Assembly (NCBI RefSeq): GCF_900107215.1
Contig: NZ_FNPD01000003.1
Span: 1 to 64,000 of the forward strand
From: Acetomicrobium thermoterrenum DSM 13490
Lineage (GTDB): Bacteria; Synergistota; Synergistia; Synergistales; Acetomicrobiaceae
DNA length: 64,000 nt
Direction of reading: 5' to 3'
Shown: positions 22,983 to 46,478 of the stretch, one piece after another
Layout: each line of letters starts with the position of its first letter
How positions within the stretch are numbered: the first letter of the stretch is position 1
Notes under the pieces: model-generated
The model's database searches: none
Told to the model about the DNA's origin: nothing
Seen by the model: the letters and a program-made list of their open reading frames with translations, nothing else
Program-made: the position numbers and the translations under genes

Positions 22983-23939
22983 ATGTTTAAAGCAAAAAAG
23001 CTTTCCGAAATACGTGCCTTTATGGAAAAATTGAATGTCCCGGGGTCGGATGGGTGGGGGCTGCCTACATCGGAAAAGACCTTTCCTGATGGCGCAAACT
23101 ACAGAATAGAAATAGCAGGAGTAGAGTATCCGTCGACATTTAAAGCCATGGTCGATGAAGCGAAAAAAAGAAAGGTCAAAGTGCACCGGGCCATCTGTAC
23201 AGTGGGAGGATCTTCCTATCTTACCTTTGATCAGTTGAAAGAGATGGCGAAAATTGCAAACGACGAAGGTATCGAAGTCATCATGACCATGGGACACAGA
23301 AAGGCCTTCGATGTGGGATCGAAGGAAATGAGCACGAAGGAAGGCTCAATGCAGGGTTTCAGGCTTCGTGGATCCGACAACCTGGCCTACTGGTTCGAAG
23401 ACCTTATGCGAAACCTTGAAGCGGGAATAAGGGGTTTCCTTGTCTACGACGAAGGTGCCCTTATGATCCTGTCCAAAATGCGAGAGGAAGGATTTATACC
23501 GAAGGAAACAACTTTTAAGTGGTCCGTCTTCGGAGGCTACTGCAACCCGGCAGGGGCAAAGATGCTCGAGAGCATGGGCGTCAATTCCATGAATCCCCTA
23601 TCCGATGTATCTCTTCCCATCCTTTCCAGCATTAGAAAAGCTGTCGACATCCCCCTCGATGTTTATATGATCATCGTCGATGCTTTTGGGGGCATGTACA
23701 GAGCCTATGATGCTCCAGAAATAGTGCGCGTCGCCTCTCCTGTCTACTTCAAGATAGAGCCAGGCACTGCCGAGGCCGATATTTACAAGCCCTGGATGAC
23801 TGAAAGCTGGCATGACGAATTCATTCGCATGAAGGTTAAAATCGCCCAGATACTACAGGAGATCATGGAAAGGCGAGCACCGGAACTGAAGATGTCCGAG
23901 ATGTCGCCAAAGGATTTACGAATACCTGTAGTCGACTGA
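22983..23939 (+). CDS. U32 peptidase-like TIM-barrel protein
   Basis: A cytoplasmic protein of 318 residues with a repeating strand-helix pattern, ending in a PVYFKIEPG-type barrel strand. I associate it with U32 family proteins by memory of annotations of similar genes in Synergistota, not by a clear catalytic motif. It lies 33 bases after panB and 22 bases before the glutamate dehydrogenase, all co-directional, so the three are probably an operon. AGGGTGAAAA precedes the ATG. Its reaction is unknown; peptidase activity is not assured. Confidence 0.5.
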   Translation: MFKAKKLSEIRAFMEKLNVPGSDGWGLPTSEKTFPDGANYRIEIAGVEYPSTFKAMVDEAKKRKVKVHRAICTVGGSSYLTFDQLKEMAKIANDEGIEVIMTMGHRKAFDVGSKEMSTKEGSMQGFRLRGSDNLAYWFEDLMRNLEAGIRGFLVYDEGALMILSKMREEGFIPKETTFKWSVFGGYCNPAGAKMLESMGVNSMNPLSDVSLPILSSIRKAVDIPLDVYMIIVDAFGGMYRAYDAPEIVRVASPVYFKIEPGTAEADIYKPWMTESWHDEFIRMKVKIAQILQEIMERRAPELKMSEMSPKDLRIPVVD

Positions 23940-23960
23940 TTTGCTTTAGGAGGTTAATTG

Positions 23961-25196
23961 ATGTCTGATCTGTGGAATAACACCATTGGCTATATGAAAA
24001 AAGCGAGCAAAGCTCTAAATTTGAATGAAGAGATATTGGATGCGCTGCTTAAATGCAAGCGGGTTCTGGAGTTTCAGATACCCCTGCGCATGGACGACGG
24101 GAAGGTTCGGTATTTTACCGGATATCGCGTCGTGCATAACGATGCTTTGGGCGTCTCTGGAGACGGTACTCGCATAGTTGCCGGCCTAACCGCCGACGAA
24201 GTTAAGGGTCTGGCTCTAGTCATGAGTATCAAACATGCTGCCAATGGTATTCCAGCGGGAGGAGCTAAGGGTGGGATCGATGCTGATCCCACCCTTTTGT
24301 CCGAAGGTGAATTCGAGCGCTTAGTCAGAGGTTACGTCAGAGGACTTTTCCCAAGAGGTGCCAAGGTGGACGTTCCGGGCGCAGATATCAACACTAGCGC
24401 AAAAACGCAGGCTTGGATGCTCGATGAATACGAACAGATAACGGGAATTCATTCGCCTGGCGCCGTCAATGACAAGCCCAGGATTCTGGGCGGTTCTTTG
24501 GGAGGAGAAGACGCCACGGGAAGAGGTATGTATCATCTTACTTTGAAAATATGCGAAGAGCAGGACTGGGCTCCCGAAGACGTCAAAGTAGCCATACAGG
24601 GCTTTGGAAACGTAGGTTCCCATTACGCAAAATACCTGCAAAGCGCAGGGTTTAAGGTCGTCGCCGTAAGCGATATTAAGGGAGGAATCTTCAATCCCGA
24701 TGGGATCAATATAGAGGACTTGCTCAAATACTCGAGAATGACCGGTTCAGTAGTATCTTTCCCCGATGCCAGGCAAATCACCAATGAAGAGATACTGCTT
24801 TGTGATTGCGACATCCTCGCCCCTAGCGCAGTGGAAGACGTAATAACCCTTCGAAATGCAGGAGATATAAAAGCTAAGATCATAATCGAAGGGGCCAACG
24901 GACCCATAACCCCCCAGGCCGACGATGTCCTGTATTCTCGAGGAATTATTGTAGTGCCCGATGTGGTCGCCAACGCGGGCAGCGCTATAGTATGTCACTT
25001 CGAAAGATCGCAATGCGCCACCGATTATTACTGGGACCTGGAGACGGTCCAAGCAAAACTGGAAAGCCAAATAATAAATTCCTACGTTTCCATGAAAAAC
25101 ACTGCAAAAGAGTTACATATCTCTTTTAGAACTGCTGCATGGGTAAATGCCTTAAAGGCGATAGTTAAAGCCATGAAACTGAGGGGGCTTCTTTGA
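23961..25196 (+). CDS. Glu/Leu/Phe/Val dehydrogenase (glutamate dehydrogenase-like), copy 1
   Basis: Oxidatively deaminates an amino acid (glutamate or a branched-chain one) to the 2-oxo acid with NAD(P). Catalytic PAGGAKGG (Lys103), VPGADINTSAKTQAWMLDEYEQITG, the Rossmann motif GFGNVGSHYA and NAGSAIVCHFE are clear. 411 residues from ATG 23961, 7 bases after AGGAGG. A paralogue of about the same length lies at 31380-32615. It overlaps the next gene (TGATG), implying translational coupling with a PLP ammonia-lyase, a sensible pairing for amino-acid catabolism. Confidence 0.93.
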   Translation: MSDLWNNTIGYMKKASKALNLNEEILDALLKCKRVLEFQIPLRMDDGKVRYFTGYRVVHNDALGVSGDGTRIVAGLTADEVKGLALVMSIKHAANGIPAGGAKGGIDADPTLLSEGEFERLVRGYVRGLFPRGAKVDVPGADINTSAKTQAWMLDEYEQITGIHSPGAVNDKPRILGGSLGGEDATGRGMYHLTLKICEEQDWAPEDVKVAIQGFGNVGSHYAKYLQSAGFKVVAVSDIKGGIFNPDGINIEDLLKYSRMTGSVVSFPDARQITNEEILLCDCDILAPSAVEDVITLRNAGDIKAKIIIEGANGPITPQADDVLYSRGIIVVPDVVANAGSAIVCHFERSQCATDYYWDLETVQAKLESQIINSYVSMKNTAKELHISFRTAAWVNALKAIVKAMKLRGLL

Positions 25197-26200
25197 TGAA
25201 GGCAGAAAGCCATAGCATTTGCTCCCATACAATTGATTTGAACCTACTTCACATATATGAGGCAAAAAAGCGCATATCACCGCTCGTTCGCCACACGCCT
25301 CTCGTGAAATCAGATCCGCTTTCGACTCTTTTCGATCATGACGTTTTTCTAAAGCTTGAATTTTTACAAGACCCTGGGGCATTTAAAGTTAGAGGAGCGA
25401 CTAACAAGATACTTTCCCTATCCCCGACCGACAGAAAAAGGGGTGTGGTTACCTTTTCCACTGGAAACCACGGACTATGCACATGCTGGGTAGCAAAAAA
25501 GACCGATACACCTGCGGTAGTATGCGTTTCAAAACGCGTCGCTAAATTAAGTCCAAAGCGCATTGAATTCATGCGAGCCCTTGGAGCTGAAGTCGTCGTA
25601 AGCGGCGATACACAGGATGAAGCGGGTGAAATGGCAAAAGAACTTGTTGCAACGAGAGGTCTGACGTTGATACATCCCTTCGATGATCCTTTTGTCATTG
25701 CAGGACAGGGGACGATAGGGCTGGAATTGCTAGAAGATGAACCTTCGATTTCGTCTGTGCTTGTCCCTCTTTCTGGCGGCGGTTTGATCTCAGGCATCGC
25801 CCTTGCAATGAAGTCCGCAAGCCCGAGTATCAAAGTTATCGGCGTTTCCATCGAGAACGCCCCTGTAATGTACGAAAGCATAAAGGCAGGTCATCCTATA
25901 GAGATGAAAGAAGTTGACTCAATTGCAGAGTCCTTGCTTGGAGGAATAGGGTTGGACAACAGATATACATTTGAAATGGTACGCGATCTAGTGGACGAGA
26001 TCGTATTGGTAAGCGAGAAGGAGATTGAAAATGCTCTCTCCTTTACCTTGGAAAACCATCATTGGTTGTTAGAAGGCGCCGGCGTAGCCGGCATCGCTGC
26101 ATTGCTTAGTAATAAAGCAAGCGGAACAGGCAAAACAGCGATCATATTGTCAGGCTCGAATTGTGAAGCACGATCTCTGTTGAAACAATTGCAAATCTGA
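25196..26200 (+). CDS. PLP-dependent threonine dehydratase-like ammonia-lyase (EutB-like)
   Basis: A fold-type II PLP enzyme of 334 residues. Lys64 in GAFKVRGATN is the Schiff-base lysine, TGNHG is the substrate-binding Asn-Gly loop and SGGGLISGIA the phosphate-binding glycine loop. Family reactions are deamination of threonine/serine; the same family includes EutB, named in hydroxyectoine utilisation clusters. Here it is coupled to glutamate dehydrogenase upstream and a TRAP transporter 27 bases downstream. The exact substrate is unknown; TdcB/IlvA-like activity is the safe alternative. No C-terminal ACT domain is present, so allosteric control by isoleucine is unlikely. Confidence 0.85.
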   Translation: MKAESHSICSHTIDLNLLHIYEAKKRISPLVRHTPLVKSDPLSTLFDHDVFLKLEFLQDPGAFKVRGATNKILSLSPTDRKRGVVTFSTGNHGLCTCWVAKKTDTPAVVCVSKRVAKLSPKRIEFMRALGAEVVVSGDTQDEAGEMAKELVATRGLTLIHPFDDPFVIAGQGTIGLELLEDEPSISSVLVPLSGGGLISGIALAMKSASPSIKVIGVSIENAPVMYESIKAGHPIEMKEVDSIAESLLGGIGLDNRYTFEMVRDLVDEIVLVSEKEIENALSFTLENHHWLLEGAGVAGIAALLSNKASGTGKTAIILSGSNCEARSLLKQLQI

Positions 26201-26226
26201 TCCTTATTTCCGAGAGGAGTGGAAGG

Positions 26227-26838
26227 ATGAAACTCCTTCGCTTGTTTAACATAGGTTTAAAAAAGATCGAGGAGTGGATAATAGCTTACAGCATAATTTT
26301 GATGGCAATAATATTAATATCGAATGTCTTGGCAAGAAACTTATTCAACACGAGCATAAATTTTACCGAAGAAGTTAGCCAATTTTTAACAATATTTGTA
26401 ACTTTTTTCGGTACTAGTTATGCAGCCAGGAAGGCACAGCACATAAGAATGTCCCTCCTTTACGATATATCCAGCGAAAAAGGAAGAAAGGCTATTATTT
26501 TGGTCACTTCCATAGGAACAGCCCTATTAATGTTTTATTTGACTTATTTGAGCTATAAATATGTCGCTAGAGTTGCTGCGTTAAACAGGGTAAGCCCAAT
26601 TTTGCAGTTTCCACTTTATATTGTATGGAGCGCAGTTCCCATAGGGTGTTTCCTAACGGGTATTCAATATACCTTGACATTCATTAAAAACCTCACAGTC
26701 AAAGAAACCTGGCTTTCCTTTGAATCTAAATTCGAGTATGAAGACGTTCCTAATTCAAATAAAGAAAGCGAAGGCGTCAAAACAGAAGAAAACCTGACTG
26801 TAAGGGAAAGACAGGACCTAGAAAGGGGCGATGCCTAA
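26227..26838 (+). CDS. TRAP transporter small membrane subunit (DctQ type)
   Basis: 203 residues with four predicted membrane helices (ILMAIILISNVLARNLF, a conserved DctQ-like first helix, with EVSQFLTIFVTFFGTSYAARK after it). It bridges the binding protein and large subunit in sodium-driven uptake. The C-terminal 50 residues are charged and extend beyond the usual length. It overlaps the large subunit by one base (TAATG). AGAGGAGTGGAAGG precedes the start. Confidence 0.9.
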   Translation: MKLLRLFNIGLKKIEEWIIAYSIILMAIILISNVLARNLFNTSINFTEEVSQFLTIFVTFFGTSYAARKAQHIRMSLLYDISSEKGRKAIILVTSIGTALLMFYLTYLSYKYVARVAALNRVSPILQFPLYIVWSAVPIGCFLTGIQYTLTFIKNLTVKETWLSFESKFEYEDVPNSNKESEGVKTEENLTVRERQDLERGDA

Positions 26839-28118
26839 TGCTGCTGGTAATGCTAGGTTCCATGCTGCTTTTGCTGATTTTAGGCTTCCCAATGATGGTC
26901 CCCTTAATAGTTGCCCCTCTGCTCGTCATTCATTTCTACCTGCCAGCCTTTGACCCAGGTATGTTGGTTCAACAGATTCTTGGAGGGATAAGACCTCTCG
27001 CTCTTATAGCAGTACCGATGTTTATATTCGCAGCAGACATCATAACGACAGGGCAGGTAGCGAGGCGGCTTATAGACTTTGTCATGGACTTCCTTGGCCA
27101 TTTAAGAGGCGGTTTGGCGATAACGACGACCGCTGCATGCACTTTCTTTGGTGCGGTTTCAGGATCAACTCAGGCAACGGTGGTAGCTATTGGAGAGACT
27201 ATGAGGCCCTTCATGTTGGAAGATGGTTATGATGATTCGTTCAACATGGCATTGATTATAAACGCAGCAGGAATAGCCCTACTCATACCTCCAAGTATTT
27301 CAATGATCATCTACGGAGTAGTCACGGGAAGTTCCGTCGGGGAACTCTTTATTGCAGGCATTGGACCGGGATTGCTTGTGTTCATCCTATTTTCCATACA
27401 TTGTTACTTTGCTTCGCGGAAAATGAACATCAAGCTACGAGAAAGGGTTAGCTGGAAAGAGCGTCTGAACTCGCTTAAAAAAGCACTGATTCCTCTCGGT
27501 TTTCCCCTCATAATTTTAGGCGGAATCTATACGGGAACATTTAGCCCTACCGAAGCAGCTGCGGTTTCCGTTTTATATGCTGTCTTGGTCGAAACCTTCG
27601 TGTATAGACATTTGAAGGTCAAAGACTATTATCGCATAGCATTGTCTACAGGAATCGTCACGGCTGTGGTCTTTATCTTAGTCGCCATGGGAGCAGCTTT
27701 CTCATGGTTGATAGCCTTTACCAGAATCCCCGATTTAATATTGCCCCCACTTCTTGGAGAAGATCCGACAGCATTCAAGCTGCTAATCATCATTACCATA
27801 TCTTATTTCGTTGCATGCATGTTTGTCGATTCTATCGTAGCCATCATGATGCTTTCGCCCATATTCGCGCCTTGGGTCGCAAGGCTTGGGATCGATCCCA
27901 TATTGGTAGGAGTAATTGTCACGATGCAGGCGGCAATAGGAGCCGTAACTCCTCCCTTTGGATGCAACATTTTTACGGCAATGGCCGTCTTCAAAAGGCC
28001 CTATATTGAAGTAGTAAAGCGAATTCCTCCTTTCCTCATACTCTACATCCTTGCAACGTTGCTGGTTATTTTATTCCCCGACATCGCTCTCTATCTCAGG
28101 GACTTAGCCTTTAGGTAA
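26838..28118 (+). CDS. TRAP transporter large membrane subunit (DctM type)
   Basis: The main transport channel, 426 residues and about 12 hydrophobic segments. Family motifs are ALIAVPMFIFAADIITTG, FFGAVSGSTQATVVAIG, IPPSISMIIYGVVTG and TPTEAAAVSVLYA-like FSPTEAAAVSVLYA. Uses the sodium gradient to import a carboxylate-bearing solute captured by the DctP protein. Together with the neighbouring genes (ammonia-lyase, racemase-like, two M24 hydrolases) the imported substrate is probably an amino-acid-like or ectoine-like compound. A gap of 84 bases, AT-rich, lies between it and the binding protein gene. Confidence 0.92.
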   Translation: MLLVMLGSMLLLLILGFPMMVPLIVAPLLVIHFYLPAFDPGMLVQQILGGIRPLALIAVPMFIFAADIITTGQVARRLIDFVMDFLGHLRGGLAITTTAACTFFGAVSGSTQATVVAIGETMRPFMLEDGYDDSFNMALIINAAGIALLIPPSISMIIYGVVTGSSVGELFIAGIGPGLLVFILFSIHCYFASRKMNIKLRERVSWKERLNSLKKALIPLGFPLIILGGIYTGTFSPTEAAAVSVLYAVLVETFVYRHLKVKDYYRIALSTGIVTAVVFILVAMGAAFSWLIAFTRIPDLILPPLLGEDPTAFKLLIIITISYFVACMFVDSIVAIMMLSPIFAPWVARLGIDPILVGVIVTMQAAIGAVTPPFGCNIFTAMAVFKRPYIEVVKRIPPFLILYILATLLVILFPDIALYLRDLAFR

Positions 28119-28202
28119 ACGTGGGGGGTGAGATCGAAAAAATATAATTTCTTTAATGTTAATTAAGTAAAAATACTAATGAAGAAAAGAGGAGGGGAAA
28201 TT

Positions 28203-29246
28203 ATGAAGTTAAGGTCATTGATTTGGATGGTGCTGGGTTTTTTTCTGGTGTCGGTGATGTTTTTAACACTTCCAAATGAGTCGTACGCAGCTCGCGAATG
28301 GAAATACGCCTTGGAGGAGATTCAGGGAAGCGTTCAAGATCACTACGCTCAGGAATACAAAAAGAGGGTAGAAGAGCAAATTCAAGATGTGACAATTATT
28401 ATCTATCCCTATGGAGCTTTAGGCACTAGCGAAGACATTTCAGAATTAACGATGAACGGAATGCTCGAGTTTTGCTTTGCCACACCTGGACATCTCGGAA
28501 CGTTCATCCCGGCCGCGCGAGTGTTCTCTCTTCCCTTTATTTGGTCGGATAATCTCGAGGTGAATAAATATGTGGCACAGCACAGCAAGGCGATTTACGA
28601 AATGCTGGCCGCTGAATACGAGAAGTACGATCTAAAACTTCTTGCAGCCTTGACCGAAGGATGGCAAATATGGACAGCCAATAAACCGATAAGAACGCCT
28701 GCCGATATGAAAAACTTTAAGATAAGGATCATGGGCGACCCGATTCTTGCGGAGACCTACAAAGCTTATGGAGCCAACCCAATCCAGGTGCCTTACTCGG
28801 ATATCTACAGCTCATTACAACTTGGCATGATCGAAGGCAACATTCAGCCCTATTTCGCTCACGAGGAGATGCATTTCTACGAAGTACAGGACTACTTTAT
28901 CGAAGCGAAAGAAATGCCATTTTTTGCGACAGTAGTTGCGAATAAACAATTCTTTGAGTCATTGCCAAAGGAAGAACAAGAAGTTATAGAGCAAACAGCC
29001 AGGGATTGTATCGAATACATTTGGGGCGTACAGGCCAAATTAAATGAAGAGCGACTGGAAAAGATGTTGAAGGAACGCCCTCAAATCCAGGTCATCAAGC
29101 TCACAGAAGAGGAGCGTCAAGCCTTTAAGGATCAAACTAAACCAGTCATCGATAAGTACATCGAAATGTCTGGTGATACCGGAAAGCAAATTCTCGACCA
29201 GTTGTTGAAAGAAATCGCCGAAGCTGAGGAAATGTTTGGTAAATAG
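28203..29246 (+). CDS. TRAP transporter periplasmic substrate-binding protein (DctP type)
   Basis: An exported receptor of 347 residues. The signal peptide runs from MKLRSLIWMVLGFF to about NESYAA. TRAP family motifs follow: YPYGALGTSEDISELTMNG and FKIRIMGDPI; the latter contains the conserved Arg that binds the ligand carboxylate. ATG at 28203 with GGAGGGG 8 bases before it is preferred over a start 24 bases upstream. The gene has a stem-loop behind it, which would raise its transcript over the next genes. Ligand unknown; ectoine TRAP receptors (UehA/TeaA) belong to the same superfamily. Confidence 0.92.
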   Translation: MKLRSLIWMVLGFFLVSVMFLTLPNESYAAREWKYALEEIQGSVQDHYAQEYKKRVEEQIQDVTIIIYPYGALGTSEDISELTMNGMLEFCFATPGHLGTFIPAARVFSLPFIWSDNLEVNKYVAQHSKAIYEMLAAEYEKYDLKLLAALTEGWQIWTANKPIRTPADMKNFKIRIMGDPILAETYKAYGANPIQVPYSDIYSSLQLGMIEGNIQPYFAHEEMHFYEVQDYFIEAKEMPFFATVVANKQFFESLPKEEQEVIEQTARDCIEYIWGVQAKLNEERLEKMLKERPQIQVIKLTEEERQAFKDQTKPVIDKYIEMSGDTGKQILDQLLKEIAEAEEMFGK

Positions 29247-29259
29247 ATGTAATGCAATA

Positions 29260-29294
29260 TTGGGGGATGGGATCTCAAGGGTTTCATCCCCCAA
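29260..29294 (+). terminator. Stem-loop after the TRAP binding-protein gene
   Basis: TTGGGGGATG and CATCCCCCAA form a perfect 10-bp stem. The sequence after it is A-rich, so it is not a canonical terminator on this strand; it may protect the 3' end of the receptor transcript. Confidence 0.6.
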
Positions 29295-29320
29295 CAAAAA
29301 AGCGAGAAGGGATCTAAAAG

Positions 29321-30052
29321 ATGATCTATAAAGTCAAAGGCGATCAGGTTTCTTACGGAGAAGCGATAGGAATTTTGTTGATAGAAAACTACGTCCCCTT
29401 CATTCCGGGGGATGTAGCAAATGCGACAACTTATAGCTATCCCGTGCGTTTTCAGAGGATCGAGGGAGTGACCCACAGGCATCTTTTTGATCATGACAGA
29501 TCGGTCAAAGAGAAAGTATTTGAGGCTTCGAAAAAACTCGTACAAGAAGGAGTTAAAGCCATAACGGGAGATTGCGGTTTTTTGGCCTTATTTCAGGAGG
29601 AACTAAAAGAAGAGATGAATATCCCTGTTTTTTTATCGAGCCTTATACAACTTCACTTTATCAAAGAAATTATCCCTGCAGGGTCGAATATTGGGATAAT
29701 TACTGCAAGCTCCGCCTCCCTTACGGCCGATATATTTGGTGCAGCAGGCATCAATTTTACAGATCGCTTAATTATAAAGGGTTTAGAAAATAAAAAACAT
29801 TTCAAGGAATCAGTGATAGATGAGGCAGGTTTCCTCGATACCGAGAAGTTAGAAAAAGAGGTCGTGGAAACAACCAGAGAATTAAATGAAGAAACTCAAA
29901 ATATGTCAGCTATTTTGCTCGAATGTAGTCTCCTTCCTCCTTATGGGAAGGCTGTATCAGAAGTCGTCAACGTTCCTGTTTTTGATTATATAACTATGAT
30001 CGATTACGTATATTCTGCTGTTATTAAAAGCAACTTTAAAGGGTATATGTAA
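29321..30052 (+). CDS. Asp/Glu racemase superfamily protein (EutA-like)
   Basis: 243 residues. The family signature is two catalytic cysteines, each in a strand-loop: Cys85 in TGDCGFL and Cys202 in LECSLLPPYG. The N-terminal GDVANATTYSYPV is reminiscent of the AroM/hydantoin-racemase branch. In hydroxyectoine clusters a protein of this superfamily (EutA) sits beside EutB and the hydrolase, and here the gene lies between the TRAP genes and the M24 hydrolase. Racemase, isomerase or decarboxylase activity is possible. Motifs are seen; the function is inference. Confidence 0.65.
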   Translation: MIYKVKGDQVSYGEAIGILLIENYVPFIPGDVANATTYSYPVRFQRIEGVTHRHLFDHDRSVKEKVFEASKKLVQEGVKAITGDCGFLALFQEELKEEMNIPVFLSSLIQLHFIKEIIPAGSNIGIITASSASLTADIFGAAGINFTDRLIIKGLENKKHFKESVIDEAGFLDTEKLEKEVVETTRELNEETQNMSAILLECSLLPPYGKAVSEVVNVPVFDYITMIDYVYSAVIKSNFKGYM

Positions 30053-30148
30053 TAAATGAAATTTGCCAAACAGAAAATATATAATCTTATCGTAATATAA
30101 ATTTAAATATCTCTTTTTAAATATTTATATGAAAATGGAGGAATTGAA

Positions 30149-31333
30149 ATGCATAAAGTTTTGCGATTTGATGTTTTAGAATACAAAGAACGGGTAAGAC
30201 GAGTCAAAGAAAGGATGGATGCTAACGGGATAGAACTTCTTTTCCTTGTCGATCCCGCAAATATGAATTATCTCACTGGTTACGATGGGTGGTCTTTTTA
30301 CGTTCATCAGGGCGTTTTGCTCACATTAGAAGATGATCAACCACACTGGTTCGGGCGCCAGCAGGACAGCAACGGCGCCCGCATTACCACCTGGCTTGAT
30401 GAAGAACATATTCACGGATACCCCGATTTTTACGTTCAATCCCGATACACTCACACAATGGTCTACGTTGCAAATTTAATAAAGGAATTCAAATATGAAA
30501 ACAAAAACATAGGCGTCGAAATGGACAATTACTGGTATTCGGCCAAATCGATGAATGTTCTGCGCCAAGAGCTTCCCTGTGCCGTCTTTAAAGACGCCAC
30601 GAACTTGGTCAACTGGGTCAGGACAATAAAATCTCCAGCAGAAATTAACTACATGAGGCAGGCCGCTAGAATCTGCGAACATGTGATGCAGACCGCCATC
30701 GATGCAATCGACATCGGCATATGGGAGAAGGACGTGGCATCCAAGGTCGTTGCCGCTCAAATCGCTGGAGTCGATGGATACGGAGGTGATAGTCCCGCGA
30801 TATTTCCAATAATGCCCTCCGACATCAGGACGTCTACAGCTCATCTAACCTTCGATCCAGACAGAAAGTACCAAAAAGGTGATGTTGTACTGCTAGAACT
30901 TTCCGGTTGCAGGTTTAGATATCATGCACCTCTTTCACGCACCCTCTATTTGGGAGAGCCACCCGAGGGACTTAGAAAAATCGCCCAGGTTGTAATAAAT
31001 GGATTGCAAACGACTCTGGATTTTATTAAACCTGGTATTACGGCAGAAGAGGTGGAATTGAGATGGAGAAAATGTCTGGAAGGAACGGGCGTAGAAAAAC
31101 CTTCAAGAGTCGGATATGCTTTCGGTTTAAATTATGTGCCCGATTGGGGTGAACATACAGTAAGTTTAAGACCGGGCGATAAGACAATACTTAGACCCGG
31201 TATGACAATTCATTTCATGCCAGGGATATGGTTAGACGAATTCGGATTTGAATGCAGCGAGCCCTTCTTGGTAACCGAAAAGGGGTGCGAAAAGTTGATC
31301 AACTTTCCCGAGGAGCTTTTCATTAAGAAGTGA
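30149..31333 (+). CDS. M24 'pita-bread' hydrolase lacking metal ligands (ectoine hydrolase/creatinase-like), copy 1
   Basis: A cytoplasmic C-N hydrolase of 394 residues with the M24 (creatinase/aminopeptidase P) fold. The N-terminal region NMNYLTGYDGWSFYVHQG is characteristic, from memory, of EutD/DoeA ectoine hydrolases. Expected metal ligands are replaced: Glu250 in VVLLELSG and Pro/Leu in RYHAPLSRT where Asp would be; Met replaces Glu in HFMPGIWL. His232 (STAHLTF) fits the catalytic His position of the fold. EutD is described as metal-free with an attacking Glu near this position; recalled, not checked. GGAGGAATTG precedes the start. Creatinase or Xaa-Pro-type activity remains possible. 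Confidence 0.75.
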   Translation: MHKVLRFDVLEYKERVRRVKERMDANGIELLFLVDPANMNYLTGYDGWSFYVHQGVLLTLEDDQPHWFGRQQDSNGARITTWLDEEHIHGYPDFYVQSRYTHTMVYVANLIKEFKYENKNIGVEMDNYWYSAKSMNVLRQELPCAVFKDATNLVNWVRTIKSPAEINYMRQAARICEHVMQTAIDAIDIGIWEKDVASKVVAAQIAGVDGYGGDSPAIFPIMPSDIRTSTAHLTFDPDRKYQKGDVVLLELSGCRFRYHAPLSRTLYLGEPPEGLRKIAQVVINGLQTTLDFIKPGITAEEVELRWRKCLEGTGVEKPSRVGYAFGLNYVPDWGEHTVSLRPGDKTILRPGMTIHFMPGIWLDEFGFECSEPFLVTEKGCEKLINFPEELFIKK

Positions 31334-31379
31334 TAATGACAATTCATTCTAAATAATAAATAAAGAGGTGGTATGTAGC

Positions 31380-32615
31380 ATGAAAGACGTATGGGAAACC
31401 GCAAGATATTACTTAAAAGTGGCAGCTGAGGCTATTGACCTCGAGCCGGAAATAACAGAAAGGTTGAGCACCCCTATGCGCTTTGTAGAATTCACCATTC
31501 CCGTTCGCATGGACAATGGAGATAAGAAATTGTTTATAGCCTATCGTTCCCACCACTGCGACGCCTTGGGGCCCTGCAAGGATGGAACAAGGGTAAAACC
31601 GGATCTCACACCTGAGGAGATAAAGGCTCTATCGATGTTCATGAGCATAAAGCACGCCATAGGAGACATTCCTGCCGGCGGAGGCAAGGGCGGCATCAAA
31701 GCCGATCCATATTCAATGAGCAAAGGAGAATACGAGCGTCTGATACGCGGATTCATCAGGAGATTGGTTCCCAAGGGAGCTATGATCGATGTTCCGGGAG
31801 CCGACATAGGCACAGGAGAAGAACAGATGGCTTGGATGTTGGACGAATACGAGCAAATAACAGGAATGCACAGCCCCGCCGCAATCAATGATAAGCCAGT
31901 AGCCCTTGGAGGGTCTAAGGGTGGATATGAAGCTACAGGACGAGGTGTTGCCCTATGTACTTTCGAGGCATGCAAGGACCTGGGGTTTGAATTCGATAAA
32001 ACGACAGTTGCCATACAGGGTTTCGGTCAAGTAGGAAGCGTAACGGCAAAAATGCTTTTTGAAAAGGGGTTCAAGATCCTTTGTGTCAGTGACATATACG
32101 GAGCAATTTACGATCCCAAAGGCATAAACATAACCAATCTGCTTGAATACGTCAAAAAAACAGGTAAGGTCGTTGAATTTCCCGGCGCGCAGTCTATAGA
32201 TAGCAGAAAGATATTTGAATTGGATGTGGATGTCCTCATACCGGCAGCTGTACAGGACGTCATCACCGAAGATAACGCCGACAGGATAAAAGCCAAGCTA
32301 GTCGTGGAAGCCGCAAACGGGCCGACGACTCCGGAAGCCGATGCGATATTGTCGCGTAAAGGTATAAGGCTCATTCCCGATGTCCTGGCAAACTCGGGGG
32401 GTGCCATAGTATGTCATTTTGAACGCATTCAAGGATTGAGCAACGACTGGTGGGAAGAAGAAAAGGTCTATCAGATGCTTGAAAAGAGGATCCTCGGCGC
32501 CTATAAAGAAATATCATCGATTGCACAAGAATTGAAAGTAACGCGTCGCACAGCTGCATGGGCCTACGCCTTGAGGAAAATAGCAGAGGCCATGCGCTTA
32601 AGGGGATGGAGCTAG
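31380..32615 (+). CDS. Glu/Leu/Phe/Val dehydrogenase (glutamate dehydrogenase-like), copy 2
   Basis: 411 residues from ATG 31380, paralogous to the enzyme at 23961-25196 (same motif order: PAGGGKGG with Lys103, VPGADIGTGEEQMAWMLDEYEQITG, GFGQVGSVTA, NSGGAIVCHFE). The Rossmann motif and catalytic Lys are intact. It sits between the two M24 paralogues, so the dehydrogenase/hydrolase pair was probably duplicated as a unit. The second copy may differ in amino-acid preference. AGAGGTGG precedes the ATG by about 9 bases. Confidence 0.93.
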   Translation: MKDVWETARYYLKVAAEAIDLEPEITERLSTPMRFVEFTIPVRMDNGDKKLFIAYRSHHCDALGPCKDGTRVKPDLTPEEIKALSMFMSIKHAIGDIPAGGGKGGIKADPYSMSKGEYERLIRGFIRRLVPKGAMIDVPGADIGTGEEQMAWMLDEYEQITGMHSPAAINDKPVALGGSKGGYEATGRGVALCTFEACKDLGFEFDKTTVAIQGFGQVGSVTAKMLFEKGFKILCVSDIYGAIYDPKGINITNLLEYVKKTGKVVEFPGAQSIDSRKIFELDVDVLIPAAVQDVITEDNADRIKAKLVVEAANGPTTPEADAILSRKGIRLIPDVLANSGGAIVCHFERIQGLSNDWWEEEKVYQMLEKRILGAYKEISSIAQELKVTRRTAAWAYALRKIAEAMRLRGWS

Positions 32616-32627
32616 GAGGTGAAAGAA

Positions 32628-33803
32628 ATGGCATTGATATTTGAAGTTTCCGAATATCAGGAACGGCTTCGTAAAGTCAAAGAAAGCATGCTCCGAAAGG
32701 GCATCCAGGTCCTCATCGTAAGCGATCCTGCGAATATGAATTACCTGACCGGTTACGATGGTTGGTCCTTCTATGTCCATCAAGGGCTGGTAATCGCTTT
32801 GGATTACGACGAGCCGATCTGGTGGGGTCGGGGAATGGACGCCAACGGTGCAAAGCTTACCACTTGGTTGAAACACGACAACATTCGACCTTACGCAGAC
32901 GACTACGTCCAAAATGTCTTCAAGCATCCCATGAGCTTCGTAGCAGACATACTGCGAGAAATGGGCTGGGAAAACAGACATATAGGAGTAGAAAAGGACA
33001 ACTACTGGTTTACGGGGCAGTGTCTGGATGTGCTGCGAGAAGAATTACCGCAAGCAAAATTTCACGATGCTACAAGCCTGGTCAACTGGATCCGAACTAT
33101 TAAATCACCTGCGGAAATAAAGTACATAAAAGAAGCGGCCAAGGTTTGTGAACACGTCATGAGGACAGCCATTGACTCCATAGAAGTTGGTAGACTCGAA
33201 AGCGAAGCAGCTGCAAATGTCTATCATGCCATGATAAAGGGCACTGATGAATTTACTGGGGATCATCCTGCGATATTCCCTATCATGCCTTCCAACGAAA
33301 GGACGTCTGCGGCTCACCTGGGCTGGAAACCCGATAGGAAATACGCACCAGGTGACATCATTCTCCTCGAACTTTGCGGTGTCAGATTCAGGTATCATTG
33401 CCCATTGTCACGAACGGTCTATATAGGCGATCCGCCCAAGGAGCTTAAGGAGATAGCAGACGTTGTGATCGATGGCATTGCCAAAACACTTGATTTCATA
33501 AAACCGGGCGTTACAGCAGAGGAGATCGAGGCAAAGTGGCGGGAAGCCATATCGGGTTCCAGAGTAGTCAAGCCTTCGAGGCTCGGCTACGCCTTTGGTT
33601 TAAATTACGTCCCCGACTGGGGCGAGCACACTGTAAGCCTACGTCCTGGAGATAAGACCATAATGAAACCGGGAATGACTATTCACCTTATGCCGGGTAT
33701 ATGGCTTGATGAGTTTGGGTTTGAGTGCAGCGAACCCTTCTTGGTGACTGAAAAGGGGTGCGAGACGTTCCTAAACTTCCCGCGCAAAATTTTCACCAAG
33801 TAG
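32628..33803 (+). CDS. M24 'pita-bread' hydrolase lacking metal ligands (ectoine hydrolase/creatinase-like), copy 2
   Basis: About 391 residues, a close paralogue of the protein at 30149-31333. Shared motifs are NMNYLTGYDGWSFYVHQG, PAIFPIMPS, AHLGW (catalytic-type His) and GLNYVPDWGEHTVSLRPG. The same loss of metal ligands is seen (LLELCG, RYHCPLSRT, HLMPGIWL). The ATG at 32628 has AGGAGGTG 7-8 bases upstream. The proteins may form homo- or hetero-dimers, as M24 enzymes usually dimerise. Function is inferred only from fold and neighbours. Confidence 0.75.
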   Translation: MALIFEVSEYQERLRKVKESMLRKGIQVLIVSDPANMNYLTGYDGWSFYVHQGLVIALDYDEPIWWGRGMDANGAKLTTWLKHDNIRPYADDYVQNVFKHPMSFVADILREMGWENRHIGVEKDNYWFTGQCLDVLREELPQAKFHDATSLVNWIRTIKSPAEIKYIKEAAKVCEHVMRTAIDSIEVGRLESEAAANVYHAMIKGTDEFTGDHPAIFPIMPSNERTSAAHLGWKPDRKYAPGDIILLELCGVRFRYHCPLSRTVYIGDPPKELKEIADVVIDGIAKTLDFIKPGVTAEEIEAKWREAISGSRVVKPSRLGYAFGLNYVPDWGEHTVSLRPGDKTIMKPGMTIHLMPGIWLDEFGFECSEPFLVTEKGCETFLNFPRKIFTK

Positions 33804-33917: not shown

Positions 33918-34265
33918 CTATATCCTGGTCCAGAAATGGCTGTTAGCCCTAAAGTAGAGCTAATCCCGGCGATGTCAATTAAAGCAAAACCAGTTTTCAT
34001 TAAGTCGGTGCCAATTGGAACAAAAGTCCTACCGTAATTGGAGTAGTTCCTATGGGATATGTAGATGGTGTATCCAGACAGCTCTCAAATAAAGGTAATG
34101 TGTTATTACATGGACGGCGTTGTCAAATAATAGGCAATATCTGCATAGATCAGTTTATGATCGATATAACTGATAATCAATCCCCAAATAGGGGACGAAG
34201 TTGTATTTCTAGGAAGGCAAGGGAAAGAATTAATAGCAGCAGAAGAAATTGCTTTGTTATTAAAT
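33918..34265 (+). pseudogene. alr: Alanine racemase C-terminal remnant
   Basis: Three reading frames together resemble the C-terminal half of Alr. First LYPGPEMAVSPKVEL with MSIKAKPVFIKSVPIGT (frame ends in a stop near 34036), then VIGVVPMGYVDG with NICIDQFMIDITD, then GDEVVFLGRQG with ELIAAEEIALLL. The order MGY.DG ... G..C.DQ.M.D.TD is the Alr hallmark near the catalytic Tyr region. At least two frameshifts and a stop rule out function. The PLP-Lys N-terminal domain is absent. Confidence 0.75.
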
Positions 34266-34403
34266 AATGATGGAGTAATGCATGCCTGTGGGCATGACGT
34301 ACATGTCGCGATTCTTTTGATCGCAGCAAAGATCTTATCTAAATATAGATCTGAAATAAAAGGGAAAATAAAGTTTGTTTTTTCAACCGAAGAACAGCTT
34401 TAG
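34263..34403 (+). pseudogene. Fragment of an M20 family amidohydrolase joined to the alr remnant
   Basis: Directly after the Alr-like AEEIALLL frame comes DGVMHACGHDVHVAIL and KIKFVFSTEEQL followed by a stop. This equals the metal-binding region of M20 amidohydrolases (compare the intact genes at 34453 and 38705). The junction between the alr and M20 parts is in frame and seamless, so it is a deletion scar between two former genes. Confidence 0.8.
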
Positions 34404-37554: not shown

Positions 37555-38232
37555 ATGGAGAATAGAAACTTTACGCACGAGAGCCTAAGTCAAAAAGTTG
37601 CCGAATTTTTAAGAGAAGAAATACTGTGGTCCGGCAAATATCACAAAGGCCAGCACGTCGAGGAGAGCGAAATCGCTGAACGGCTTAATATAAGCAGAGC
37701 ACCGGTTCGAGAAGCCCTAAGGGAACTGGAAAACCAGGGTTTATTGATCTATGTACCCAGAAAGGGCACTTTTATACCCAATTTCGATCATGACGATATG
37801 ATGGAAATTCTCGACATCAGATATATGATCGAATCGCGGGTATTCGAAATTTTGATCAAAAAGGATATGCTCACCGAAGAGGATTTCTCCAATTTGCGAA
37901 AAATTGTAGATGATATGGTTGCCTCTGCGCGGTCCGATGAGCCTATGGAGAAGAAAATAAGCGCATTTTCGGAATACGATATAACATTTCATAAATACCT
38001 ATGGGAAACATCAGGCCGAAAATGGAGTAATAGGATCCTCCGTGATCTTTACTACCAGTTGAGGCTTGCCATGACGCAAGATCTTATAATGGAGCAGAAC
38101 ATTGAGCTTTCTGCAGTTATGCATTATGACATTATTGATAGTTTAAAAAATAAAGACCTCGACAGAGCAAAAAAAATGTTAGTTAAACATATACTTTCTT
38201 TGGATCGAGAATACAGCGATAATAATTCTTAG
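37555..38232 (+). CDS. GntR-type transcriptional regulator (FadR/FCD subfamily)
   Basis: A 225-residue regulator with a winged-helix N-terminus (ESEIAERLNISRAPVREALRELENQGLL, residues 36-63) and an all-helical FCD ligand-binding domain (ILDIRYMIESRVFEILI; FHKYLWETSG carries an expected metal/ligand His). FCD proteins sense carboxylic acids, so it could control the catabolic genes around it, perhaps by binding the AT-rich 300 bases downstream. EnuR, the regulator of ectoine genes, is by contrast an MocR type; this one is not that. Confidence 0.88.
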   Translation: MENRNFTHESLSQKVAEFLREEILWSGKYHKGQHVEESEIAERLNISRAPVREALRELENQGLLIYVPRKGTFIPNFDHDDMMEILDIRYMIESRVFEILIKKDMLTEEDFSNLRKIVDDMVASARSDEPMEKKISAFSEYDITFHKYLWETSGRKWSNRILRDLYYQLRLAMTQDLIMEQNIELSAVMHYDIIDSLKNKDLDRAKKMLVKHILSLDREYSDNNS

Positions 38233-38704: not shown

Positions 38705-39904
38705 ATGTATTCAGATGAAGTGACGAAACTTAGCAAGTCCATGTCGGAGGAGCTAAGGGCTTTACGAAGGGAATTCCATCAATTTCCTGAGCTTAGCTTT
38801 CAGGAGTTCGAGACGGCAAGGAAGATCGCCATTTATATGAAGGAATTGGGCTATGAAGTCAAAGAAAACGTGGGGAAAACTGGTGTGGTCGCCTTACTGA
38901 AAGGAGCAAAAGAAAACCCAACCGTTGCGCTGAGGGCGGATATGGATGCACTGCCCGTGAAAGAGATGACCGGCCTTTCTTATGCCTCTAAAAACGATGG
39001 AGTGATGCACGCTTGCGGCCATGATATACACGTCACTTGCGCCTTAGGAGCTGCAAAAATTTTAGCTTCTTTTAAGGATGAACTTCAAGGAAGCGTCAAA
39101 TTTATCTTTCAGCCGGCAGAGGAGATAAACGCAGGGGCAAAGGCCATGATCGATGATGGCGTGCTCGAGGATCCTCCAGTCTCTTTTATATTTGGTTTGC
39201 ACAACAATCCCGAGATACCGGTAGGCAAAGTAGGATTAAAGGAAGGCCCTTTAATGGCAGCTGTGGACTCCACCTTTATAATCGTAAGAGGGCAGGGAGG
39301 ACACGCTGCTTATCCCCATAGAGTAATTGACCCTATAGTATGTGCTTCTTCTATAGTTATGAACCTGCAAACTATCGTAAGCAGAAACGTCGATCCCCAA
39401 AAGGCTGCTGTCATTAGCTTTGGAAGTATCAATGGGGGGATGGCCAATAACGTAATCCCCGATGAGGTAAAGCTTACCGGCACAGTGCGTACCTTCGATG
39501 AGGGCCTTCGCGATTCCATTGAAGGCTGGATGAAAAGAACCGTTGAAAATACTGCCTCAAGCTTAGGGTGTAAGGTCGAATTTAACTATCGCAGAGATCT
39601 TCCTCCCGTCGTAAATCATCCGGAGGCAACGAAGATAGCTTTGTGGACAGCCCAAAAGGTATTTGGCGAAGACGGCATCATCCTACCAACTCCTTCGATG
39701 GGAGGTGAGGATTTCGCACTGTACCAAAAAAGGGTCCCTGGGTGTTATTTCTGGCTTGGCGTGGGCAATCCCGATATAGATGCTATACACCCATGGCACA
39801 GTCCACATTTCAAAGCGGATGAAGACGCCCTCTGGAGAGGAGCCGCGCTTTTTTCCGTTTCTGCTATTATCGCTTTAGAAGAATTAACTAAAAATTCACA
39901 ATAA
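38705..39904 (+). CDS. M20 family amidohydrolase (N-acyl-amino-acid hydrolase type), copy 2
   Basis: 399 residues, paralogous to the gene at 34453-35643. Metal site MHACGHDIHV (Cys104, His106), then QPAEEINAGAKAM, GGHAAYPHRVIDP and SMGGEDFALY. AAGGAGG 8 bases before ATG 38705 fixes the start; an upstream in-frame start within the glyA scar is rejected. It is followed at 34 bases by a DUF3100 membrane protein and its small partner, a layout like AbgA-AbgT, so the three may form a solute uptake-and-hydrolysis unit. Confidence 0.9.
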   Translation: MYSDEVTKLSKSMSEELRALRREFHQFPELSFQEFETARKIAIYMKELGYEVKENVGKTGVVALLKGAKENPTVALRADMDALPVKEMTGLSYASKNDGVMHACGHDIHVTCALGAAKILASFKDELQGSVKFIFQPAEEINAGAKAMIDDGVLEDPPVSFIFGLHNNPEIPVGKVGLKEGPLMAAVDSTFIIVRGQGGHAAYPHRVIDPIVCASSIVMNLQTIVSRNVDPQKAAVISFGSINGGMANNVIPDEVKLTGTVRTFDEGLRDSIEGWMKRTVENTASSLGCKVEFNYRRDLPPVVNHPEATKIALWTAQKVFGEDGIILPTPSMGGEDFALYQKRVPGCYFWLGVGNPDIDAIHPWHSPHFKADEDALWRGAALFSVSAIIALEELTKNSQ

Positions 39905-39938: not shown

Positions 39939-40754
39939 ATGCTTGAGGCGATTAAAAATTGGAAAATTCATTTTCTCGCATTGATATTGGTTATAATAGC
40001 CGAGTGGATCGGCGCTTTTTCGTTTCCCATCGGTCCCGGAAAAATTGTTTTACTGCCGATGTTATATGCGCTAATCATGGGTATTTTCCTCGGTCCCAAA
40101 TTTTTAAAATTGGCCAGTCATAAAGATATGATCGATGCTGGAAGTTTAGTAGGCGTAACTTTAATGCTGTTAATGGCAAAATATGGAACTACAGTAGGCC
40201 CAAACATCCCTATGATCCTTAGGACAAGTCCTGCTTTAATATTGCAAGAACTTGGAAACTTGGGAACCCTCTTTTTAGGCGTACCTATCGCGGTGTATTT
40301 AGGACTCAGGCGAGAAACAATTGGAGCTGCCCATTCGATCGCCAGAGAGCCTAATGTGGCTTTGATAGGTGACATCTACGGCTTGGATACTCCTGAAGGC
40401 CAAGGAGTCATGGGAGTTTACATCTGCGGAACGGTCTTTGGTACTATTTTCTTTGGTCTAATGGCAACATTCACTGCCGCAATGGGAATTTTCCACCCTC
40501 TAGCTCTGGCCATGGCCTCTGGGGTAGGAAGCGCAAGCATGATGACAGCCTCCGTTGGCGCTTTGAGCGCTATGTTTCCTGAAATAGCCGATAAAATTCA
40601 GGCCTTGGGAGCTGCAAGCAATATGTTAAGCGGCCTAGACGGGGTTTATATGTCCCTCTGGATAGCCTTGCCAATGACGGAATGGCTGTATAGGAAGTTC
40701 TATAAAATGAAATATGGCACTTATCCAAGTCAATCTGCCGTTAAGGAGGGCTAA
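39939..40754 (+). CDS. DUF3100 family membrane protein
   Basis: 271 residues with about seven or eight hydrophobic segments. I recognise the family as DUF3100 by GAAHSIAREPNVALIGDIYGLDTPEGQGVMGVY-like content (the central conserved SIAREPN and DIYGLDTPEG stretches). No soluble domain. It lies between an M20 hydrolase and a second, smaller membrane gene (gap 3 bases). A two-component transporter for the amidohydrolase substrate is inferred from context. No characterised member is known to me. Confidence 0.7.
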   Translation: MLEAIKNWKIHFLALILVIIAEWIGAFSFPIGPGKIVLLPMLYALIMGIFLGPKFLKLASHKDMIDAGSLVGVTLMLLMAKYGTTVGPNIPMILRTSPALILQELGNLGTLFLGVPIAVYLGLRRETIGAAHSIAREPNVALIGDIYGLDTPEGQGVMGVYICGTVFGTIFFGLMATFTAAMGIFHPLALAMASGVGSASMMTASVGALSAMFPEIADKIQALGAASNMLSGLDGVYMSLWIALPMTEWLYRKFYKMKYGTYPSQSAVKEG

Positions 40755-40757
40755 TCG

Positions 40758-41204
40758 ATGAAGATCGGAGAAGTTCTTGCTGTTCTTATAATTATCGGCA
40801 TCATTACTTTGGTGGGCAACTTCATTGGAGCAAATATCCCAATGATAGACGCCATTCCGGGAATGATCTTCTTAATCGTCATAAGTATACTTGGAGTTTC
40901 ATGCTCAAAAGTAATTCCCGTTAGAATCCCTGCAGTAGCCTATATAGTCACAATAGGATGCATAATTACCATTCCGGGATTTCCCGGTTCGGCTGTATTT
41001 AACGCTTGGGCACAAAAGGTTAATTTTTTAGCCCTAGCTACACCAATACTTGCATACGCAGGTATCTCCATTGGAAAAGACTTGGGTACGCTGAAAAAAA
41101 CGGGGTTGCGAATTTTAGTAGTTTCATTTGTCGTTTTTATAGGAACTTATATTGGTTCTACGATAATAGCTCAGTTAATTTTGAAACTGATAGGAGAAAT
41201 TTAA
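40758..41204 (+). CDS. Small membrane partner of the DUF3100 protein
   Basis: 148 residues with four or five hydrophobic segments and no charged domain. It follows the DUF3100 gene by 3 bases, so the two are almost certainly translated together. Proline- and glycine-rich segments such as IPGFPGSAVFN suggest a re-entrant helix hairpin of a carrier. It resembles half of a carrier protein split in two, but I do not recognise the family. Good candidate for an undescribed two-gene transporter. Confidence 0.65.
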   Translation: MKIGEVLAVLIIIGIITLVGNFIGANIPMIDAIPGMIFLIVISILGVSCSKVIPVRIPAVAYIVTIGCIITIPGFPGSAVFNAWAQKVNFLALATPILAYAGISIGKDLGTLKKTGLRILVVSFVVFIGTYIGSTIIAQLILKLIGEI

Positions 41205-43179: not shown

Positions 43180-43278
43180 AAAAACAAATCATCGATTTAT
43201 GAGAATATTGTTTGCATGTATATGTGAATGGTATCTCTTATTCTTCGGTATTTTCACAAATAGGAAGGAGGGTATAAA

Positions 43279-43752
43279 ATGGCTTTTGAGGGCAAAAAAT
43301 TCATCCTGCTCGGAGAAAGGGACGGAATACCCGCCCCGGTTATGGAAGAAGTTTTAAAACCCCTCGGTTGTGATATCGCCTTTGCCGTGACGGAGTGCTT
43401 CGTCTGAACTGCGGCAGGGGCGATGGACCTGCAAAACCAGCAGCGCGTAAAGGACATAGCTGAAAAGTACGGACCGGAAAATGTGGTGGTCGTACTTGGA
43501 AGTTCCGACGCGGAAGGTGCGTCGATTTACGCGGAGACCGTAACTGCTGGTGATCCCACATTTGCAGGGCCATTAGCCGGAGCCCCGTTGGGGCTCGCCG
43601 TGTATCACATTTTCGATCCCCTATTCAAAGAAAAGGTAGACCCAACACTTTGGGAAGAGCAGCTCGGCATGATGGAAATGGTCTTGGACGTCCAAGGCCT
43701 GATCGATGCTGTTGCCGAAATGAGAAAAGAGCACAGCAAATACGAGCTCTAG
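43279..43752 (+). CDS. grdA: Selenoprotein A of glycine/sarcosine/betaine reductase (UGA read as Sec)
   Basis: A small 157-residue redox carrier that transfers the carboxymethyl/acetyl-level group from the substrate-specific component to component C in selenium-dependent reductases. FEGKKFILLGERDGIPAPVMEE opens it and AVTECFV-Sec-TAAGAMDLQNQQR contains the Sec codon TGA at 43405-43407 (residue 43), the usual GrdA position. The frame is open and conserved on both sides, so TGA is a selenocysteine codon. ATG 43279 follows AAGGAGGG. A hairpin 7 bases after the UGA may be its SECIS. Confidence 0.97.
43414..43432 (+). promoter_or_regulatory. bSECIS candidate of grdA
   Basis: GCAGG and CCTGC form a 5-bp stem around GGCGATGGA, starting 7 bases after the UGA. 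Bacterial SECIS elements are short hairpins within about 11 bases of UGA with G in the apical loop; the fit is moderate. Confidence 0.5.
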
Positions 43753-45152: not shown

Positions 45153-46478
45153 ATGTTAAAGGCCGTTCATTACATAAACCAGTTCTTCGGGCAGGTGGGA
45201 GGAGAAGAAAGCGCCGATTTCGAACCTGTATTGCAGGAAGGTCCGGTCGGGCCAGGGCTTCTTTTAAACGAATCCATGAAGGAAGTCAAGATCACCCATA
45301 CCGTAATATGCGGAGACAACTTCATGGCATCTCATCCTGAGGAAGCGGTCGCTCGGATTTTAAAGATGCTTGAGGGATTGAAGTTCGACGTCTTCCTGGC
45401 AGGCCCTGCCTTCAATGCAGGTCGCTACGGCGTGGCCTGCGGAACGATCTGCAAGGCCGTAAAGGAAAGGTTCGGTGTCCCAGCTATCACCTCCATGAAC
45501 GAGGAAAACCCTGCGGTGGAGATGTTTAAATCCAACATGTACATATTTAAAGGCGGACGTCGTGCAACCTATATGAAGCAGGACGTCGAAAAGATGGCCG
45601 CCTTTGCCGATAAAATAGCTCGTGGAGATAAACTGCTTCCTGCCTCAATGGAAGGCTACTTTCCAAGAGGCATACGTCATGAGGTCTTCCTCGAGGACCT
45701 TGGTGTGGAGCCTAAATGCGCAGCCGACAGGGCATTTGAAATGCTCCTTAAAAAGCTCAAAGGCGAGCCCTACGAGACCGAACTTCCCATACCAAAACAG
45801 GAAAGGGTGCCTATAGCCCCAGCAGTAAAGGACCTTCGCAAGGTAAAGATTGCCTTAGTCACTTCCGGAGGCATCGTCCCCAAGGACAACCCCGACAGGA
45901 TACAGTCCTGCTCGGCTACGAAATGGGGCGCCTACGACATTTCCAAGCTCGATCTCCTGACGGCACCTGAGTTTAAGACAATACATGCCGGTTACGATCC
46001 CGAGCAGGCCAACAAAAACCCCAACGTCGTCCTTCCCCTTGACGCCATACGCCAGTACCAAAAAGAGGGGCGCATCGGAGAGGTTGATGACCAATATTAC
46101 GTAACCGTCGGCACCGGCACTACACAGGCTGAAGCAGCCAGAATGGGCCGTGAGATAGCCCAAAAGCTCAAGGAAAGAAACGTAGGAGCAGTAGTTTTAA
46201 CGGCGACTTGAGGAACCTGTACTCGTTGCGGGTCAACGATCGCAAAGGAAATCGAACGTACGGGCATTCCTGTGGTGGTAATTTGCAACCTCATCAATAT
46301 TGCTAAGACCGTAGGGGTAAACCGCATCGTACCCGGTGTTGCGGTTCCCTATCCCCTTGGAAACCCCAACCTTTCGCCGGAAGACGAATGGAAATTGCGC
46401 TTCCATCGCGTCGGCGTGGCTCTCGATGCTCTCGAGACTGACATTAACGAACAGACCGTTTTTCCGGTAAAGATATAG
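45153..46478 (+). CDS. Selenoprotein GrdB/GrdF/GrdH-type subunit (UGA read as Sec)
   Basis: The catalytic selenium subunit of component B, 441 residues counting the Sec. TGA at 46209-46211 (residue 353) sits in GAVVLTAT-Sec-GTCTRCG, the UxxCxxC motif of GrdB/F/H. The frame is open on either side and the C-terminal part (NLINIAKTVGVNRIVPGVAVPYPLG) matches the family. Ending the gene at the UGA, as a naive caller does, loses 88 residues. It is 19 bases behind the proprotein gene. Which substrate (glycine, sarcosine or betaine) is not fixed by sequence alone; neighbours favour betaine. Confidence 0.93.
46223..46239 (+). promoter_or_regulatory. bSECIS candidate of the GrdB-type gene
   Basis: TCGTTG (46223-46228) and CAACGA (46234-46239) form a perfect 6-bp stem with the loop CGGGT, 11 bases after the UGA. 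The short stem, distance and G-rich apical loop match the bacterial SECIS model well. Confidence 0.65.

Follow-up and report, generated by a model that had tools for sequence, protein, structure and literature searches.

A DUF3100 Membrane Protein and Its Small Partner as a Candidate Two-Subunit Carrier Teamed with Amide-Cutting Hydrolases

The DUF3100 protein and the 148-amino-acid membrane protein encoded directly 3′ of it very probably form one carrier. The pair was analyzed in a DNA stretch of 64,000 nucleotides (the window), where it follows an M20 amidohydrolase gene. Computation revealed obligate pairing of the two proteins, repeated fusion, a confident joint fold and a conserved link to amide-cutting enzymes. 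Beyond these results, we infer transport itself, together with import direction, coupling ion and substrate. The reading that we consider probable is that of a two-subunit secondary carrier, similar to LysO and the 2HCT family, that imports blocked amino acids for the cytoplasmic hydrolase of its operon. DUF3100 would be the large subunit and the 148-amino-acid protein the small subunit of one secondary-active carrier of inverted-repeat design. Its substrates would be small carboxylated amides, such as N-acyl-, N-carbamoyl- or similarly blocked amino acids, taken up through ion symport or exchange; once inside, they would be cleaved to yield the amino acid by the cytoplasmic hydrolase encoded in the operon (in the window, the M20 amidohydrolase).

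Such a carrier would turn two uncharacterized membrane proteins found in several phyla into one testable transporter, and it would give a name to a missing second subunit that is annotated as “hypothetical protein.” It would also suggest how N-acyl- or N-carbamoyl-amino acids may enter the cell; to our knowledge, the bacterial M20 aminoacylases that hydrolyze such compounds intracellularly mostly have no known transporter. An assay of DUF3100 alone would probably come out negative.

Organization of the locus

The unit comprises three same-strand genes, encoding the M20 amidohydrolase, the DUF3100 protein and the small membrane protein, separated by gaps of 34 and 3 bp (Table 1). The first-pass annotation of this DNA had described two membrane open reading frames 3 bp apart directly 3′ of an M20 gene, and had identified the larger one as a member of the uncharacterized DUF3100 family; the coordinates and the identification both hold. 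The large protein matches PF11299 with an E value of 1.1e-101 and 339.6 bits (cutoff, 27) over positions 1 to 234 of the 235 in the model, and at the level of sequence its assignment is certain. A literature search retrieved no paper naming DUF3100 or PF11299 and no report of transport or phenotype. The small protein received no family assignment in Pfam or NCBIfam searches. The ribosome site of its gene, aaggagg, falls within the final codons of the DUF3100 gene, and this overlap with the stop codon makes translational coupling from DUF3100 to the small gene likely.

Table 1. Positions of the genes and signals of the carrier locus in the window
Feature	Position	Strand	Basis
GntR/FCD regulator, 5′ of the unit	37555..38232	+	PF00392/PF07729
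M20 amidohydrolase (TIGR01891 subfamily)	38705..39904	+	TIGR01891 and PF01546 matches; 399 aa
DUF3100 membrane protein, proposed large subunit	39939..40754	+	PF11299; 271 aa
DUF3100 stop codon and small-subunit ribosome site (aaggagg), overlapping	40740..40757	+	Sequence read directly
148-aa membrane protein, proposed small subunit (C-terminal part)	40758..41204	+	Homologue adjoins or is fused to DUF3100 in 118/118 loci

For the M20 gene, the ATG start at 38705 was preferred over a TTG at 38663, and the sequence aaggagga is found just 5′ of this ATG. The product scores 398 bits on TIGR01891 (cutoff, 153.75) and matches PF01546 with an E value of 2.7e-49, and its metal-site motifs ACGHD (103), PAEE (137), GGHA (198) and GGEDF (333) are intact. 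Because it stays below the cutoff of every NCBIfam equivalog model (414 against 500 for CpsA and 318 against 550 for DoeB2), its substrate is not readable from the sequence. No N-terminal hydrophobic segment is visible, and the enzyme was therefore taken as cytoplasmic, which makes it a candidate cytoplasmic N-acyl-amino-acid hydrolase. Elsewhere in the window, a fragment of an M20 gene (34263 to 34394; 77-amino-acid open frame; PF01546 E value, 1e-9), apparently left over from a duplication, lies just 5′ of an intact M20 gene at 34453.

The GntR/FCD regulator encoded 5′ of the unit possibly controls it; no homologue of this regulator was found near the pair in the 92 related loci searched. 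The GntR, M24, GDH, FTHFS and histidine kinase genes of the window were rejected as members of the unit, as this neighborhood is not conserved among those loci.

Conservation and natural fusion of the pair

The small protein accompanies DUF3100 in every one of 118 nonredundant loci, which remained after removal of loci more than 95% alike. Its homologue is encoded directly 3′ of DUF3100 in 108 of them, is fused to DUF3100 in 10 and is missing in none, so that the spacing of the two genes is not due to chance. The loci span Synergistota, Bacillota, Fusobacteriota, Pseudomonadota, Actinomycetota and one haloarchaeon. Before this removal, a scan of 84,980 species genomes had given at least 477 confirmed relatives and supplied 80 loci, and plasmid records had added loci from Fusobacterium, Bartonella, Chelatococcus, Sulfitobacter, Paracoccus, Ensifer, Ochrobactrum, Escherichia coli, Salmonella, Hafnia, Klebsiella, Psychrobacter, Variovorax, Burkholderia, Caballeronia, Agrobacterium, Arthrobacter, Streptomyces and the archaeon Haladaptatus. 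The intergenic gap, read in 70 related loci, ranges from −20 to +76 bp and is mostly between −8 and +24 bp.

Within the Synergistota, PF11299 is present in 40 of 151 genomes, and the small homologue follows DUF3100 immediately in all 30 loci read. A profile of the small protein run on the same 151 genomes gave confident matches only in genomes with DUF3100 and weak chance matches elsewhere. The only DUF3100 genomes lacking a small match are G105 and G109, where the DUF3100 fragment ends at the edge of a contig.

The order within the ten fusions is always the same, with the small part at the C terminus of DUF3100. On a maximum-likelihood tree of 114 DUF3100 domains, the fusions require at least four changes (origins or losses), and four to five on bootstrap trees. 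Since natural fusion arose repeatedly, this is strong evidence that DUF3100 and the small protein act as one, and the pair thus presents both an obligate partner and natural fusion, two marks of a two-subunit carrier. The first-pass annotation had proposed genome-wide co-occurrence as a check, and had named fusion of the small gene to unrelated genes, or replacement by them, as counterevidence. The neighborhood proved to be kept across phyla, and the only fusion partner is DUF3100 itself.

Several individual loci have features of their own. In two Synergistota genomes the DUF3100 gene is broken next to an intact small partner (L015:1447-2265 and G011:C1:42512-43212; in-frame TAA and apparent frameshift), reflecting either a pseudogene or an assembly error. 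Six loci of Phascolarctobacterium/Negativicutes (L058:7461-7907 and five others) encode, 3′ of the pair, a protein of 148 to 153 amino acids that matches nothing in Pfam or NCBIfam and may be an additional component of the unit in these bacteria. A cassette of LysR (TdcA-like), DUF3100, small protein and M20 (L038, H41 to H48) was seen in 8 of 5,426 complete E. coli genomes, always on a plasmid and never on the chromosome, and related cassettes are found on Salmonella and Hafnia plasmids.

Predicted joint fold and distant homology

The window pair was modeled as a single chain; the two genes share a reading frame, and the lone stop codon between them was read as a residue, which is a modeling device only. 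The alignment was built from the natural fusion L094 and other in-frame read-through loci, and replaced an earlier alignment in which MAFFT had put all small-only rows onto the N-terminal half of DUF3100. For this chain of 421 residues, AlphaFold gave a mean pLDDT of 90.4 and a pTM of 0.87, and the natural fusion L094 presents the same elements (pLDDT, 88.4; pTM, 0.85) with a disordered linker at residues 278 to 290. Because the whole-chain pTM is high, the relative placement of both parts is predicted confidently. Foldseek searches of solved structures (PDB) with both models gave no E value below 1e-3 and no confident match; the hits of top probability, namely, the citrate symporter CitS and Na+/H+ exchangers with TM-scores of about 0.24, are a hint only. 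A sequence search of solved structures returned chance matches only.

Profile comparisons, weak but consistent, suggest that the pair is likely homologous to the LysO and 2HCT carriers. In single hhalign comparisons, without database correction, LysO aligned with the N-terminal half of DUF3100 (5e-5) and with the small protein (9e-5), residues 40 to 194 of DUF3100 aligned with positions 3 to 96 of the large part of LysO (7e-4), and the small protein aligned with the C-terminal half of 2HCT (3e-4), against values of 0.02 or worse for reversed-profile controls. The LysO family PF03956 is matched by 10 of 43 relatives of the small protein (best E value, 2.7e-5) and the 2HCT family PF03390 by 5 of the 43 (best, 2.8e-4), whereas the small protein of the window matches neither. 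When 146 genomes were searched with the LysO profile, true LysO proteins came first and were followed, in several genomes, by the small partners of DUF3100 just below the cutoff; in genome searches these reached 20 to 22 bits against the 23.8 set for PF03956, and thus fall outside the family as delimited by Pfam. Members of the DUF3100 family gave no match to PF03956, and the genome search with PF03390 (cutoff, 26.2 bits) listed full 2HCT proteins only and not the pair.

On these alignments, DUF3100 would be the counterpart of the large part of LysO, and the small protein that of the small part, with the order of the two reversed; this permutation would explain why sequential structure alignment fails. 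When the small protein and the N-terminal half of DUF3100 were compared as a possible internal repeat, the E values of 0.0014 to 0.02 were suggestive only. The earlier proposal that the small protein may be half of a split carrier, with a predicted complex as its check, is supported by the fusions, by the confident one-chain models and by the weak homology to LysO and 2HCT repeat units.

The conserved residues are distributed unevenly between the two proteins. Most of the conserved polar residues of the pair are in DUF3100 (E22, Q103 E104, S133, R136 E137, E153 and N228); those invariant across phyla include Q103 E104, S133 and R136, and E153 and the GxGSxSMM motif (195 to 202) are nearly invariant. 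The most conserved residues of the small protein are Gly, Pro, Thr and Ala, with T95, A101-G102 and G129-T130 conserved. This distribution would be compatible with DUF3100 alone being the carrier and the small protein being a regulatory or assembly subunit outside the substrate path. Such an arrangement is nevertheless very unlikely, because the small protein is never absent in the 118 loci, because it shares with the N-terminal half of DUF3100 a resemblance to LysO repeat units, the two being weakly similar to one another as well, as halves of an inverted repeat would be, and because the pTM of the joint model is high.

Hydrolases and other neighbors of the pair

In 78 of the 109 loci with enough flanking sequence (about 72%), an M20 gene is found on the same strand no more than 900 bp from the pair, and in 12 (about 11%) another amidase or amidohydrolase takes its place. 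These 12 enzymes are seven members of the amidohydrolase superfamily, four hydantoinases/carbamoylases and one relative of the DoeB-type N-acetyl-diaminobutanoate deacylase. The adjoining M20 proteins fall mainly into a group of about 390 and one of about 438 amino acids, and closely related carriers can have either. The recruited enzymes are of four types, including the carbamoylase and the DoeB-like deacylase, and most of them cut an amide beside a carboxylate; the deaminase-like members of the amidohydrolase superfamily fit less well. The first-pass annotation had proposed a candidate transporter “for an M20 substrate,” and gene context agrees with this proposal.

No amidase is found within 900 bp in the remaining 19 of the 109 loci (about 17%), which are mostly from halophilic Bacilli, and some of these carry DctA-like genes or a dehydrogenase pair. 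In Bacilli, a pair of genes for a 3-hydroxyisobutyrate-dehydrogenase-like protein and an aldehyde dehydrogenase is often located 5′ of the carrier pair (12 to 13 loci). Such loci are what a general carrier, of 3-hydroxy acids or dicarboxylates, for example, would show if its partners varied by lineage and its link with M20 were incidental. The position of the M20 gene speaks against this, as at half of the loci it immediately precedes the pair on the same strand, while M20 proteins account for about one gene in a hundred in the genome of the window (21 PF01546 matches in 1.97 Mb), and so does the recruitment of different amidase families in different lineages; an incidental link is therefore quite unlikely.

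Several clusters of Pseudomonadota also contain a serine ammonia-lyase, threonine dehydratase, threonine dehydrogenase (Tdh/Kbl) or TdcA-like regulator, suggesting that N-acyl-serine or N-acyl-threonine may be the substrate in those bacteria. Serine or threonine as a universal substrate was rejected, since neighbors for the catabolism of these amino acids occur in few Pseudomonadota only.

With the hydrolase in the cytoplasm, the simplest interpretation is that its substrate is imported, and an inward direction with an amide-linked amino acid as substrate is on balance probable. The same two-subunit carrier could instead swap precursor for product as an antiporter, or export the amino acid (or acid) freed by the hydrolase. 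Precursor/product exchange is established for citrate/lactate (CitP, of the 2HCT family) and for aspartate/alanine (AspT), and DUF3100 has a weak match to AspT/YidE (E value, 0.014). Homology does not favor import, since LysO, the nearest characterized relative by profiles, is a lysine/thialysine exporter (PMC8498466). Even so, the substrates of cytoplasmic hydrolases would still need an entry route, the partner enzymes have in common a class of substrate (amide-linked carboxylates) more than a product, and the amino-acid-catabolic neighbors in several Pseudomonadota fit intake for catabolism. Export or exchange by the pair is thus unlikely.

In its fullest form, the reading of the pair as an importer is tentative, and we hold it to be somewhat short of even. 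DUF3100 and its partner might constitute a transporter family, not yet described, within the LysO/2HCT superfamily; it would be specialized in the import of N-blocked amino acids and, in bacteria and archaea alike, would have joined up several times with unrelated amidases. Its parts would stand in permuted order, the large one leading and the small one trailing, whereas LysO and MadLM have the opposite arrangement.

Other features of the window

The genes for GrdA (43276 to 43752) and GrdB (45153 to 46400) of a glycine/sarcosine/betaine reductase are both interrupted by an in-frame stop (TGA expected). The stops lie at the known selenocysteine sites, CFV-U-TAAGAMD and TAT-U-GTCTRCG, and cause both genes to be cut short by standard open reading frame calling. 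A BCCT betaine-type transporter is encoded 3′ of them, at 46480. A repeated module (22983 to 33803) contains two GDH-like genes (23958 and 31368) and two ectoine-hydrolase-like DoeA/M24 genes (30149 and 32619), with the second GDH gene between both M24 genes and a TRAP transporter at 26227 to 29246. The M24 protein of this module scores 455 bits on DoeA, under the cutoff of 613.

Comparison with known systems

LysO (YbjE; PF03956), the L-lysine/thialysine exporter, is made, like the pair, of a small and a large part, and both the small partner and the N-terminal half of DUF3100 are weakly similar in sequence to its repeat units. The two parts are fused in E. coli and split into about 101 and 197 amino acids in the genome of the window itself (G000:C2:161866-162715; L149); further Synergistota and two clostridial genomes likewise have LysO as a split pair. 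In contrast to the DUF3100 pair, where the small part is last, it comes first in LysO, which moreover exports. The acidic pair E233 and D261, intramembrane and essential in E. coli LysO (PMC8498466), was not placed in DUF3100, no alignment being reliable enough.

The malonate transporter MadL/MadM (PF03817/PF03818) likewise consists of two adjoining membrane genes, whose products are close in size to those of the pair, with 125 and 259 amino acids in L176 compared with 148 and 271 in the window, but its small gene is first. Split LysO and MadL/MadM are thus examples of such carriers encoded by two genes, with the small gene leading. Kinship of the pair with MadL/MadM was rejected, as the hhalign E values of 0.018 or worse, obtained with seven to eight sequences only, equal those of reversed controls. 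The 2HCT carriers (CitS and CitP; PF03390) resemble the pair in that their C-terminal half aligns with the profile of the small protein and in that CitS is the Foldseek hit of top probability. They differ from it in being one chain of about 430 amino acids, and the TM-score is only 0.24 and the match is under the Pfam cutoff.

The first-pass annotation had likened the locus to abgAB-abgT, a comparison that stands for gene organization but not for kinship. AbgT belongs to another, single-chain family that none of the locus proteins matches, and membership of the pair in it was rejected, as its membrane proteins match PF11299 alone or nothing in Pfam. The likeness lies in the arrangement, in which M20-type hydrolase genes adjoin the gene of a carrier for uptake of the amide substrate of the hydrolase, as in abgA-abgB-abgT, where AbgT imports p-aminobenzoyl-glutamate for AbgAB (PMC5082436).
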